DNA of 64,000 nucleotides from Chaetoceros tenuissimus (Eukaryota; Bacillariophyta; Thalassiosirophyceae; Chaetocerotales; Chaetocerotaceae), in the NCBI GenBank assembly GCA_021927905.1, contig BLLK01000047.1, forward strand, positions 4,278,001 to 4,342,000, written 5' to 3'. A program made the position numbers and the translations under genes. A model generated the notes under the pieces. The model had not been told where the DNA came from. It saw nothing but the letters and a program-made list of their open reading frames with translations, and did not search any database. Below, in pieces: positions 31,372-37,080 of the stretch. Every line of letters begins with the position of its first letter. Position 1 is the first letter of the stretch.

Positions 31372-32441
31372 ATAAAATTTGATTGTACTTTATATAAAAA
31401 AATTGTTGTAGAATAAATCAATAGCAGCCTTTGTGCAAGCCTTTTGATGAGGTCGGCTAATGAATCATTTTCAAAATAATGTATGTTGTTTGTGCGTTTA
31501 GTCGTGCTGGAAGAAGAAAAGGCGGGGCACTTTTGTAAGACCCCGTTTGATGTCAATTTGTATGTTTTTAGCTCATTCCGAAGAAATCCAAAATATTGCA
31601 TTTAGCGATCTGTTCTCCTTTTCGATTCTATATTAATAAGGTAGTCTAGATGATATTTTCAAAAGATTCTTTTCCATGAATAGTAAGAAGTAGCTACTGC
31701 AAGAGATTGGCAAAGCAAACATTGTCAAGTATGTACTTCTTCTGAGAATGCGGAATGTAACAGCATATCAGCATCTTCAACTTGAGGTTTACTGAGAGAG
31801 GCCATTCTGATCATGCAATTTTTCATTACTTTTTCACCAATCGTGTTCTTCCTCTTCCATTTAGCGAGAAGCCTCGGAAAAGGAACCTCTGTATTAGATT
31901 TGCAACTGAAAACTGAGGCCTGAAACGGGCGAAATCATAGGAGCCAGCAATTATAGATTTCGAATAAAAAAATGTGACATTGACCAAACTAAATCATTTA
32001 ATTATCCATCGTGGTGGTCCTCTTGTACAGTATTTGTAATATAATATTTTGCTTGTTATCAAGAACACTTGTTTGCTTTTTCATTGCTCGTTACCAAAAA
32101 ATTGCTTCACACAAAAGCTCAAAACATCGAAGAAGGAAGGAAAGGCTACAAGAGCACTTTGAAGCAGTAATTTTTATGTTTTGCTTATGAACTTCAATGC
32201 CACATTCGACCCGTTTGGAAGAGCGAACAGGTAACAACCTAGCAAACATATTTTCTAAAATAAATAAAGATAATTTAAATCATACACTCTTGTTATGTAC
32301 AATGTACATTATGTTTTCAAATTTGTCAGACGAGACTTCTTGTTGCTTGATATTCTTCTTTTTTGCTTGGACAAGAGTTTCGCCGAAGAAGATTTGAAAA
32401 TGTACTATTTCATTGTTCGCGTTCTATGGATTAATTCCACT
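31372..32441. other. gene-poor region 3' of KIX gene A
   Basis: No believable gene. Parts of this stretch (a GAGAGGCCATT... block near 31796, ATTGCTTCAC...AAGCTCAAAA near 32100) recur in the same order near 32990 and 33223, 3' of KIX gene B. Gene and downstream flank were therefore duplicated together. Confidence 0.55.
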
Positions 32442-32886
32442 CTAAATACTTTTCTTCGGATTATCAAAAAGTGCCATCTTTTTTACTTTCTTTACCATAC
32501 GCTGCCTCAATGTAGACATATCAGCATATTCCTCCATGGAGGAAGCAATGATGTAGAGATTGAGCTCGATATGTTTCACCAACTTGAATTTTGCTCTTGC
32601 TAATTGTTCCTCTTTTATGGATTGGAGCAGTTCCATCCTGTTGTTAATGAAATGTAATACAATATAAAAAGATTCTTGTTAGAGTATCATAATCAAAGCA
32701 TGAAACAAAGAAAACATGCGCCCTAGCCTCCTCCTCGAAGAAGAACCTCTTCTTATTAACTCACATGATGTAAATCATTCCTTTTCGTAAGTGGAAGTCG
32801 CTTTCGGAATCATGCCATGACTTGGATGTTTTCGCTTTGAAAGCAATAGAAGGCAAAGGTAGTGTTACTTTCGATTGAGAGTTCAT
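32442..32886 (-). CDS. stand-alone KIX-domain protein A
   Basis: Exons 32886-32765 and 32637-32442, joined in phase 2 (donor GTGAGT, acceptor AACAG), give 105 residues. Exon 1 ends with SWHDSESDFHLRKGMIYI; exon 2 continues with MMELLQS, then HIELNLYIIASSMEEYAD and STLRQRMVKKVKK. Spacing and residues match the KIX fold of CBP/p300 and Mediator subunit 15: W-H start, a helix with LR.....I, then E..LY..A.S..EY and a third helix. KIX domains bind activation domains of transcription factors. Here nothing else is attached: no HAT, TAZ or bromodomain. The same intron position is kept in genes B and C. Confidence 0.75.
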
Positions 32887-33708
32887 GCTTTCGTTGAAAT
32901 AAATTCTAACGAATCTTAAATAACGAATTTACGCTTCTTTTTTTTATGAGGAGGACGGAGGCGTATCAACCTTGAACTGACGTCCATAGAGAGGCCATTT
33001 TTCCATCATGCAATTACGAAAGTCCCTTCCTAGTCGAGAAGCCAATCTTTGCCTTCTTAGTACCTCGCCATCTTTCTGAAGTAGCTAGATAAACAATGTT
33101 CCTCCTCCTCCTCCTCGATCGAAGATTTGCAAAGTGAAAAGGAGCCAATAGGTACCTAACTTATTAAACAACCTTTTCAGAAATACAAAAGTTCTCAATT
33201 TGAAACATCTAGCTAGCTAATATAAAATTGCTTCACTCAGAAGCTCAAAAATGTTTCGAAGAAGGAAGGAAGGAAAAAAATTACTATGTATGCACATATT
33301 CCGTTTTTGATGGAGCCGGAGTTGGAGCGAAACTTCCAGCAGCATCGATGCAGATGATTTTTGCCTTCTCAGGAGGCTTCTCTAACAATCATGCTTACGT
33401 ACGTATTGTACCGTACCTATCACTCTGGTACTCGTTTGAAAAATGGGAATGTTTATTGAAAATGGGAAAGAAAAGTTTATTTTATCAAAATTACTACTCG
33501 AAGTACCGTATGGATGCCTAATTAGTTATCAAGAATCAAACTATTTTTACTCTTTCAAAATAGGAGAATATAAAGTAAATCTAGTCCAAGGGACCAGCCA
33601 GGCAAGAAAAATTAGAAATGAAAAATATCGAACATGCCATCATGTAAACATCATCTACTCGAAGATTTTTCTCTTGGCTGGTGGCATTCTTTTTTTATGA
33701 ACTGTAAA
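32887..33708. other. region between KIX genes A and B
   Basis: This holds the upstream region of gene A and the 3' flank of gene B, including the duplicated blocks also seen 3' of gene A. Plus-strand frames at 33228-33700 show no family resemblance and overlap duplicated flank, so I do not call a gene. Confidence 0.45.
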
Positions 33709-34199
33709 TTAAAACTGTTTTCTTGTTCCTCCTTCTTGTGATGCACCATTTCTATGATCTTGCTCATCCTCTTTTTTCATATTGTCTTTGTTCTTTCCAT
33801 TTTTTTCTTGGATGTGCCTCCTTGCGTTACATGCCATCTTTTTCACTACCTGAACCATGCGCTTCTTTAGTGTAGATATGTCTGCGTATTCTTCTATCGA
33901 CGATGCATTGTAGTAGAGATTGAGTTCGATGTATTTTAATAGCAATAACTTTGATGATATTGCCAACTGTTTACATTTGAAAGGTTGAAGCAGTTCCTTC
34001 CTGAGTTCCATTCAAAAAAGAAAGATGAGAAAGAGAAATATTGTTATGACATCAAGATGAACATAAAAAGAACGTACATAATGTAAATCATGCCTTTTCG
34101 TAGGTGGAAATCTTTCTTAGAGTGCCATGAAATGGGTATACTATCTTCATGAATCGGGCCATTTCGACGAGAAGAGTTAGATTGAATTAAAAAGTCCCT
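33709..34199 (-). CDS. KIX-domain gene B, start codon apparently lost
   Basis: Exon 2 is 34000-33709 and exon 1 ends at 34078 (donor GTACGT, acceptor ACTCAG), at the same intron position as A and C. The joined product reads SWHSKKDFHLRKGMIYI, then MKELLQP, YIELNLYYNASSIEEYAD, STLKKRM and a Lys/Glu/Asn-rich tail. The frame is open upstream to about 34240 but has no ATG. At the codon where A and C start (about 40 codons before the donor) there is AGG (34199-34197). Unless another exon supplies the start, translation could only begin at the internal Met of GMIY, which would cost most of helix 1. Either a start-loss pseudogene or a gene with an unseen first exon. Confidence 0.6.
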
Positions 34200-34978
34200 T
34201 TGTGGTAGCTCATAGTGTTGATGATCGTCTTGACAGTTTGTAGTGCCTTAGTTTTATAATTAGAATGATAGATTTCAGGTATGATAAACTTGTGTTCTCT
34301 CTCAATGTATTTTTGCGTTCTCACATTTGCCTTCTCAGTCGACCTTTCTCGCGTCTGTCGTAGTATGTGTTCAATATACATACTGCAAGTACGTAGGAGT
34401 CGAGAACATTTTGCAAAGAAAATAAATGTATCTATTTTGATAGGCTTATTGTTTTTCATCACTTTCTTATTACAGTAACATTTCAATACACCATGGGCTA
34501 TCAGTTTAGTTAAAAACGAAAATTCATACATCTCCAATGTGCATTTTTTCCTTTATGATATTGTTCTTTGTTGGTTAGGAATACACAGAAACATTTCTTT
34601 GTCACAGGGTCGTGTTCTCACGCTTCTCTCCTAGTTTTTTTTTTAAGTAGTAGTTCTACCCTTCCTCTCTCTCACTCACTCCTCATGCGTTTTAGAGTCA
34701 TCATGCCAATGTATTGAAATCTTAGGAATATATCAGGTATGTTATTACCTTTGTTTAAAATTTTGTCTAATGTTTTAGTTTATACTACAATTCTCACAAC
34801 GCATGAAAAATTTACCCCCTTAAGCAAAATATTTTCCTTAACTTTGCCGTACTTGCTTGGTATGTTTTTCTACGGGAATCGAATCGATTGAAAAAATGAA
34901 AAAGAATGTATTGTATCTAAAGCGAGAATTGTATGCCAACTTAGTACATTTGTCTGATAATCTTGTTGACTCCTACTT
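34200..34978. other. region between KIX genes B and C
   Basis: A 116-codon minus-strand frame (34187-34537) overlaps the open 5' part of gene B in another frame and has no family resemblance. Otherwise AT-rich spacer. Confidence 0.4.
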
Positions 34979-35403
34979 CTACTTCTTCGACGACATAAAT
35001 TGTAATTGAGTTGGCTGAGTTCTTGCCACATCCAATCTCCTTTTTGCAATTTTAATTATACGTTCTTTTAAAGTGGATAAATCAGAATATTCTTCAAAAG
35101 AAGAAGCATTCGCGTAAAGGTTCAGTTCTATTCTTTTCAGTAGGAGTAACTTGGACTCTGTAATTGGTCCACCTTTCGCTTCGAAGAGTTTTTTGCTGCA
35201 CATCAGGGTAAGAAGGAATAAGTGAGCTGTCAATTAGACTAAGTTTACATTCATCTAGGCATATCACAATATACTTACATTACGTAAATCATTCGTTTTC
35301 TTAGACATTGGTAATGACTAGTTGACTGCCAGCCCATATCCTTCTTTTGTAGCATTGGTTTGCCATCTTGGCTTTTAGATAGTATAAGAAATTCTGCACC
35401 CAT
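34979..35403 (-). CDS. stand-alone KIX-domain protein C
   Basis: Exons 35403-35279 and 35195-34979 (donor GTAAGT, acceptor TGCAG, phase 2) give 113 residues. The start at 35403 follows a nearby upstream in-frame stop and gives an N-terminus of 41 codons before the intron, against 40 in gene A. The KIX core reads HYQCLRKRMIYV, then IKKLFE, RIELNLYANASSFEEYSD and STLKERI, ending in a short basic tail. The Trp-His of A and B appears as Trp four residues earlier. It is the most diverged of the three and has intact coding. Confidence 0.75.
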
Positions 35404-37080
35404 TGTTTATATTTCGAATAAGCTATTGTATATTTCAAACTTTTGTTGTAATAAGAAGAGGGAATGCAGAACAAAAATAAAGTGCGGTGGAGAGGAATGC
35501 GAAAAGAAAAAATGCGAAGGGTAATGGTGTGACATTCACCAGGCATGGTATTTTCTTTCCAAACTGTTCTTACTAACGTATTTACGTAAATTATCGTCGA
35601 GTAGATAAGAGTGAGCGAGATAGCCGAGAAGGCAAAATTATCAAACCTCAGTGAGAAGCACGGTAGAAATATTTGGGGGGGATGCGCACTTGGTTGCTTT
35701 GTAACATTAAGCTAAATCTACTAAAATAAAGGGGGGATTCTACCCTTTTCAGACCTTTTGATCCGTCATCGCCTGTCAATGATGTTGTCAATAATTAACC
35801 TGACATTGTTTTAATTTTTTCTTCTTTTAGTTACTTCTTTATTATGAAGGCACATGAACAAATATATCATCAATTAATTGAATTTGCTAATAATAATTAT
35901 ATATGAATACCATCGGAGGATGTTTGCTCTTCAATTTGTCAGCATATCATCCTCATGACAACATTTCTTATAATAACGTTGAATTTACACATTGCTTCTG
36001 GTGAAATTTGCGTTTTAGATGCTTTACTAGAATCAATCCAAAGTGTATTTCGTTCAATTAGATAGTAGAAGAGTCCATGAAGCGATTTTGCTGGAGATAG
36101 GTTCAACTTAAAAGGTTGTGAATCTATTCCACTTTTCTAGGTGGAAAACGCAACCGGTGTAGTCTTTCCACCTCATTATCTTTTGTAATTTAATCTGAAT
36201 ATATATATCAAAACATGAAAAACATTCTATTAATAAATTATGAGCTATCTAAAACCTGTTTCAAGCATTTGAAGGGGTCTAAAGCTGCCTGTTGTTGTCA
36301 ATACAACCTTCTCAATAATGCATCATTGTATTACCAACTCTAAAATCGAGTGTAGATGGTATTTCATTGCTCTATTCATATAAATTGAAACTGTTTACAC
36401 TGACTTCTAACTCCCAATGCTTTTTGAAAAACAACTATGCAGTGGAAAGGTTTATGAAACGTATTTACATCAATGTTTCGACACGAACAAACTTTGATGG
36501 GAAGTGAAAAAATTGAGCGCTATCTGGATCGTCAAATAAAAGCATATTTTTCCTGAATCTATGTCACAAACTGTTTCATAATTGTACCAAGTAAATGATG
36601 TGCTGTTTTCGTAGCAATTGTGATAGATTAACATCGCTTTCCTGCTCGAATAGTCTCTATAGCTGAAAGATGAAAAACAAGTAAGAATTCTATACTGAAA
36701 ATGTATGTATCATAAGTTTAAATGCATCTTTTCGCTAACTTACACGGTCAACGCTTCTCTACTTGATGCATGCACATAGTGAGTGCAAACTGAGAGCAAG
36801 TAAAGTCTTCATGATGGCAAAAAGTGGCACATATATGAAATCATGTGATCTCCATAAAAATAAAGTCCCTGTGTTGGCAGCATGTAGCACTTGATAGAAT
36901 GCTCCAAAACCCTACCCCTTGCCGCAACCCTTTTGTCTATGTATTCAGTTAGGCTTCTATAGTAGTGGGTAGGGTTTTTACCAAAACATGGTTCCACTAT
37001 AGTGTGTTTTGATTCAATAGGTGGTGAAAAAAATTTGATTTGACGTTGAGCGAAGAATTTTTGTAAGGAGGTCTACGCAT
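35404..37080. other. long gene-free region
   Basis: About 1.7 kb of AT-rich sequence with no convincing gene. A perfect 12-bp inverted repeat (AAAACCCTACCC at 36906-36917 against GGGTAGGGTTTT at 36967-36978, 49-base loop) lies inside a short open frame near 36809-36997. A G-run (GGGGGG) is near 35680. Unknown content; possibly old mobile-element remains. Confidence 0.4.

Follow-up and report, generated by a model that had tools for sequence, protein, structure and literature searches.

The KIX domains of coactivators, such as those of CBP/p300 (PF02172; KIX_2, PF16987) and MED15, are well-studied docking sites for activators. Plant KIX8 and KIX9 are built on a single KIX domain with no other recognised domain, and the available passage of the KIXBASE paper also mentions proteins in which KIX stands alone (PMC5668377). 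The term microProtein, in the accessible passages of two further papers (PMC6003976; PMC4807768), denotes a small protein of one domain, related to larger proteins, whose action is to interfere with complexes. Here we report on a 64-kb window, the whole stretch of DNA that was analysed (C34:4278001-4342000; G+C content 37.3%), from the genome of the diatom Chaetoceros tenuissimus (41.03 Mb in 68 contigs). It holds a row of three short genes, A, B, and C, hereinafter mini-KIX genes, which belong to a larger set of minimal loci with kin among the CBP-like genes of the same genome. With about even confidence, we read them as a KIX-only family, kin to the CBP/p300 KIX domain, that has spread by DNA-level duplication and competes with CBP-like proteins for activators.

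A row of three minimal KIX genes

A sequence-only reading of the window had described three minus-strand genes of two exons each, sharing motifs and a phase-2 intron and encoding little more than a KIX fold, with A and C at 105-113 residues. This description proved accurate in most respects: the frames of A (32886-32442), B (34247-33709), and C (35403-34979) are each divided by a phase-2 GT...AG intron at the positions given there (Table 1), the spliced products of A and C are predicted to have 105 and 113 aa, and W...LRK.MIY, IELNLY..ASS.EEY, and STL..R are common to all three, while TAZ, bromodomain, and PHD matches are absent from each of them. The count of three genes stands for A and C, which are open from an ATG, but less firmly for B, whose frame opens at 34247 with no in-frame ATG found upstream of the W, its first methionine being that of GMIYIM. 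B may carry a lesion, have an upstream exon, or reflect an assembly error, and it is accordingly treated as a putative intact gene.

A genome-wide family of minimal KIX loci

Exon 2 of C matched 17 places in the genome, itself included, recovering B with an E-value of 8.2 × 10–12 and A with 1.7 × 10–8; three more queries added a broken copy (C16:3400889-3401058) and two weak places (C38:1444080, E = 0.06; C46:321402, E = 0.17). We count at least 14 minimal loci on three contigs, and all family counts are lower bounds, since the own-genome search scores the best candidates only. In the gene models, nine of the 14 look intact, with an ATG, an open exon 1, a phase-2 intron, and an open exon 2, and their predicted products have 100-116 aa and a pI of 9.1-11.6; donors, acceptors, and starts were chosen manually for agreement with the alignment, after which the joined frame was checked to be open, and where the frame continues upstream the start codon, and hence the length, is a choice. 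Two others (B and C16:3406341) have no ATG before the domain, and three are broken: C54:23832 by a frameshift in exon 1, C54:110473 as an exon 2 fragment, and C16:3400889-3401058 by a frame break. Contig C54 carries near-identical copies about 90 kb apart (C54:22000-27000 and C54:107500-114500; dS 0.02), one of them frameshifted, along with an exon 2 remnant, and the mini-KIX copies near this contig end have undergone recent turnover. Among viral contigs, 87 stretches fit a pattern used to seek relatives, of which none was confirmed.

Table 1. Coordinates of the mini-KIX row in the window and of the minimal KIX loci in the genome
Feature	Position	Strand
Block downstream of A, with 85% identity to 33224-33271 across 48 alignment columns	32098-32142	-
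Gene A, exon 2 (completes helix 1 and adds helices 2 and 3 and the stop codon)	32442-32637	-
Gene A, intron (phase 2, GT-AG, 127 nt)	32638-32764	-
Gene A, exon 1 (from the ATG at 32886; encodes the N-terminal tail and the beginning of helix 1)	32765-32886	-
Block downstream of B, partner of 32098-32142	33224-33271	-
TTTGCCTTCTC motif, 474 nt upstream of the A ATG	33360-33370	+
Gene B, exon 2 (helices 2 and 3, charged C-terminal tail, stop)	33709-34000	-
Gene B, intron (phase 2, GT-AG, 77 nt)	34001-34077	-
Gene B, open frame of exon 1 (ends with W...LRKGMIYIM; lacks an in-frame ATG ahead of the W)	34078-34247	-
TTTGCCTTCTC motif, upstream of B exon 1	34326-34336	+
Gene C, exon 2 (whole protein 113 aa)	34979-35195	-
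Gene C, intron (phase 2, GT-AG, 83 nt)	35196-35278	-
Gene C, exon 1 (ATG at 35403)	35279-35403	-
TTTGCCTTCTC motif, 223 nt upstream of the C ATG	35626-35636	-
Minimal loci on contig C34	A, B, C, C34:2996503, C34:3897689	
Minimal loci on contig C54	C54:23832, 24760, 109250, 110473, 112409	
Minimal loci on contig C16	C16:3398946, 3400889-3401058, 3406341, 3411795	
Intact-looking loci	A, C, C34:2996503, C34:3897689, C54:24760, C54:109250, C54:112409, C16:3398946, C16:3411795	

Relationship to coactivator KIX domains

Larger KIX-type genes of the same genome comprise three CBP-like genes (C16:220317, C16:2513265, and C48:1273232), an IBR gene (C58:621837), two longer KIX-like genes (C38:1444080 and C46:321402), and a compact MED15-like gene (C54:1264775). 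All three CBP-like proteins contain zf-TAZ and bromodomains, and those of C16:220317 and C16:2513265 also show a PHD match above the cut-off and a RING_CBP-p300 match below it; an acetyltransferase domain was not seen in the frames fetched, further exons not having been sought. Against KIX_2 their spliced KIX segments score 22.0, 34.1, and 35.4 bits and that of the IBR gene 20.6 bits, with two of the four passing the cut-off of 25.6 bits, and a profile of these four rows gives the CBP KIX structures 1sb0/1kdx as its top PDB matches (E = 2.4 × 10–4), followed by MED15 KIX. Aligned to it with hhalign, a profile of the minimal proteins (eight of the 11 spliceable rows, three near-copies being left out) matched over 72 columns with a probability of 99.0 and a pairwise E-value of 8.8 × 10–18. 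The KIX identity previously assigned by motif is thereby borne out, through a chain of profiles that passes by the CBP-like and IBR segments and not by a direct Pfam match.

At the level of residues, a 12-row alignment (the 15 spliced rows without three near-copies) shows no variation at W, R, E, Y, Y, T, and R. In the alignment with 1kdx the first five of these fall on W591, R600, E636, Y640, and Y649 (CBP numbering). R600 and Y640 form a pair that stabilises the KIX core, according to the available part of a review (PMC3936767), and in the available part of a comparison between soybean and Arabidopsis a single Arg and a single Glu are the sole perfectly conserved KIX positions (PMC10565003). 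The pI of the domain is likewise similar, being 9.3-10.5 in the 11 minimal rows and 9.35-10.0 in the three CBP rows.

The gene structure points in the same direction. The single conserved phase-2 intron noted in A, B, and C not only lies at the same place in these three but extends to 11 of the 14 minimal loci, where it interrupts the same codon in helix 1 and in every case can be spliced to an open frame. The CBP-like genes C16:220317 and C16:2513265 share this same-codon phase-2 intron, as does the IBR gene, whose acceptor, chosen among several AGs for phase 2 and an aligned helix 1, is less sure than its donor; C38:1444080 and C46:321402 have a 143-nt phase-2 intron at the matching place. 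The intron of the third CBP-like gene lies in the loop after helix 1, and the MED15-like gene has none within the domain. That CBP-like genes have this intron too speaks strongly for a single origin, and, judged by sequence, A, B, and C share common descent with recognised CBP-type KIX domains, because helix 1 is interrupted in the same way in the IBR gene and in two of the three CBP-like ones. Convergence would hardly account for an internal intron common to all of these, and its presence in the copies argues for DNA-level duplication over retroposition.

The structure search was uninformative either way, because the positive control, the KIX_2-significant MED15-like sequence, failed as well: its model was weak (pLDDT 73, pTM 0.38), and Foldseek gave no significant match for it, a KIX entry, 4i9o, coming 25th among 27 (E = 9.7). 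The model of the A/B/C-family exon 2 (14 rows; mean pLDDT 80, pTM 0.53) has helices at 2-6, 13-29, 33-37, and 39-59, and its Foldseek search against the PDB returned 0 matches.

Some of the larger genes have features of their own. In the IBR gene (C58:620000-624000, KIX exon at 1766-1990 of that piece) the KIX segment lies behind IBR zinc domains (IBR_1, E = 8.6 × 10–15), and the gene apparently encodes a putative KIX-bearing RBR-type ubiquitin ligase. The C38:1444080 and C46:321402 proteins exceed 140 residues as far as they were read, have a divergent KIX-like N-terminus without the W, and match a CBP KIX at E = 0.06 and 0.17, respectively; a C-terminal part follows in both, and the piece of it taken from C46:321402 matched no Pfam family. 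C54:1264775 (1255-1677 of the fetched piece) encodes a compact 141-aa protein whose N-terminal part matches KIX_2 with 44.4 bits.

Selection and family history

Over 80 codons, A and B differ with a pS of 0.742 and a pN of 0.182; the corresponding values are 0.828 and 0.337 for A and C, 0.761 and 0.276 for B and C, and 0.755 and 0.186 for C and C34:2996503. Across all 15 pairs pN is below pS; dS is saturated in eight, and dN/dS ranges from 0.12 to 0.53 in the other seven, the top value being that of the youngest pair, C54:23832/112409. Purifying selection acts on the mini-KIX proteins, and it has done so for long, because in these four pairs synonymous sites are near saturation while pN stands at 0.18-0.34. 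Chance or non-coding frames are ruled out by the genome matches of C exon 2 together with the lower pN.

In a tree of 17 rows a branch with a support of 95/96 separates the 11 minimal rows from the others, and a 14-row tree again sets them apart (95/91). The former unites A and B as sisters (99/95), with two C54 copies nearest to them (88/96), and does not place C, whose closest relative by identity (64%) is 1.3 Mb away. The earlier proposal that the row grew by segmental duplication consequently fares unevenly: as far as sequence relationships go, local duplication accounts for A and B, but not clearly for C.

Several points weigh against the kinship and the reading built on it. With a limit of E ≤ 10, Pfam searches with A, B, and C returned no KIX family, and none was found for C54:24760; PF02172 retrieved nothing at E ≤ 1 from the genome with its introns unspliced; and the profile of minimal rows by itself reaches CBP KIX, as its best match, only at E = 0.66. 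An earlier tree, built with the distant MED15-like row (on a branch of 5.39 changes per column) and with two mistyped junctions, did not recover the minimal rows as a single group. Five of the 14 minimal loci are broken or without a start. The equivalent of Y658 is not kept in the minimal rows or in the diatom CBP rows, the register near a gap being uncertain there; this helix-3 residue is tied to CREB/c-Myb binding in the available part of the review cited above (PMC3936767), and mammalian-type ligands should therefore not be assumed. Lastly, the tree is unrooted and short, so that the direction of change may have been either the loss of coactivator parts or the gain of a pre-existing small KIX by coactivators. 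Standard profile searches can miss genes of this kind, which are short, intron-split, and below Pfam thresholds, and for this reason other diatoms may have families of this sort that go unnoticed.

Flanking blocks and a shared upstream motif

The sequence-only reading had also seen shared blocks in the flanks of A and B. One 48-nt downstream block (85%) and a motif of 16-24 nt were recovered, but nothing further: in a blastn comparison of the A and B units (E ≤ 0.05), similarity stops at the exon edges except for the downstream block. This block is more alike between A and B than are their synonymous sites, and it is possibly a shared 3′ element. An 80-nt query around 33224-33271 matched itself alone in the genome and missed the copy at A, and is thus insensitive to such diverged copies.

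Upstream of the genes, TTGCCTTCTC occurs three times in the window, always in the row, against a mean of 0.2 in shuffled sequences; no palindromic version of it turned up within the window. The form TTTGCCTTCTC has 116 sites in the genome, compared with 32 for the reversed pattern, and among the 100 of the 116 that were listed, triples within 3 kb are confined to the row, with one, and the C16 mini-KIX cluster, with two (C16:3399567-3399732 and C16:3410532-3410673), one of the C16 triples lying upstream of C16:3398946 and the other resembling a copy of the same segment. Any such triple arose in 82 of 20,000 random sets of 116 sites; as TTTGCCTTCTC was chosen after the row had been seen, the C16 cluster alone provides a fair test. 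Only shorter forms lie close to C34:2996503 and to the C54 copies, and the DNA fetched around C34:3897689 contains none. We regard TTTGCCTTCTC as a lead, namely, a candidate shared control element of the mini-KIX loci.

Possible functions of the mini-KIX proteins

The reading that we favour can be laid out as a series of steps. A KIX domain would have been copied at the DNA level with the intron inside helix 1 retained, the other coactivator parts having been lost from the copies or, were the direction reversed, never present in them. The basic products, of about 100-116 aa, retain the KIX core residues and, if expressed and folded as a KIX domain, each would bind activation domains as KIX does while bringing no other coactivator domain. 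As the direct outcome of such binding they would act like microProteins and vie with CBP-like proteins for activators, and the many diverged copies may tune different activators. A bolder version, in which a diatom CBP KIX gave rise to about a dozen dispersed KIX-only microProteins that are co-regulated via TTTGCCTTCTC and titrate activators away from CBP, is tentative and somewhat doubtful.

Alternatively, the mini-KIX proteins could be adaptors and not decoys, with the KIX domain binding an activator or repressor and a short tail recruiting another protein. A precedent is provided by plant KIX8/9, which act together with PEAPOD (PPD) and TOPLESS (TPL) in a TPL-KIX-PPD-MYC repressor complex according to the available part of the source (PMC7160150). 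B has a charged C-terminal extension of 39 residues, and the N-terminal tails vary among copies, which would suit such a role; however, the tails are short and not conserved among subfamilies. Two repressor-recruiting motifs, LxLxL and DLNxxP, were scanned for from the W onward: LxLxL is absent in 10 of the 11 minimal rows and lies inside helix 2 in the eleventh (C34:3897689), and DLNxxP is absent in all 11. We consider the adaptor role unlikely.

It is also conceivable, though quite improbable, that the same fold now serves a ligand that has nothing to do with transcriptional activation, with a role in the ligation of ubiquitin or the binding of nucleic acids, for instance. The IBR gene, with a KIX segment and the same intron, points to a use of KIX outside coactivators in this genome, the nine intact minimal proteins are strongly basic, and the subfamilies diverge, C having 32% and 36% identity to the C34:3897689 and C16:3398946 rows, respectively; yet the minimal core and its charge resemble those of the CBP rows from the same genome, and the IBR row itself is acidic (pI 5.9). 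That the loci are merely a decaying duplicate family of little function, several copies being recent and short-lived, is very unlikely, for although three of the 14 are clearly broken, two are without an ATG before the domain, and C54:23832 and C54:112409 differ little with a dN/dS of 0.53, the long purifying selection seen among A, B, C, and C34:2996503 and the nine loci that look intact, with intron and ATG, argue the contrary.

Comparison with known systems

Our reading of the row as a KIX-only family competing with CBP-like proteins may be set beside the known users of this domain. The mini-KIX proteins can be aligned over the whole domain with the CBP-like KIX segments of their own genome, having the same core residues and the same internal intron as two of the three CBP-like genes, but they differ from CBP/p300 in their total size, in the absence of TAZ, bromodomain, and PHD matches, in not keeping Y658, and in scoring below the Pfam thresholds. 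MED15 KIX belongs to the same domain family and has a KIX_2-bearing counterpart in this genome; unlike the mini-KIX genes, this counterpart lacks an intron within the domain, and its branch in the earlier tree is very long. The mini-KIX proteins resemble plant KIX8/KIX9 in consisting of one KIX domain, whereas LxLxL outside the helices is absent from them (from the W onward); the soybean KIX8/9 genes have four exons, in the available part of their description (PMC10565003), as against two in the mini-KIX genes. The standalone proteins of KIXBASE are alike in carrying KIX alone, but the passage available to us speaks neither of a family in diatoms nor of an intron shared with coactivators or copies multiplied in tandem (PMC5668377).

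Among the matches listed in our searches of open-licence papers we did not find a diatom KIX family described: the one paper retrieved for KIX domains and diatoms is on yeast exonucleases, nothing was retrieved for Chaetoceros, and the KIX domain is absent from the papers listed by a wider search. KIX is not mentioned in the main text of a stramenopile transcription-factor paper or of a C. tenuissimus virus transcriptome paper, nor in the microProtein papers listed by the one search on that subject. Standalone KIX proteins have been mentioned before, but in these searches we did not find an activator-titrating layer of KIX-only microProteins described. The mini-KIX proteins are like microProteins in being short, in having one interaction domain, and in being kin of larger multi-domain proteins of the same genome: the nine intact predicted products combine a size of 100-116 aa and a single domain with kinship to the three CBP-like proteins. 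They differ in that their interference with a larger complex is putative. If the genome does make them, the many freestanding KIX domains beside the CBP-like proteins would represent natural dominant interference, or the evolution of adaptors, at a coactivator docking site.

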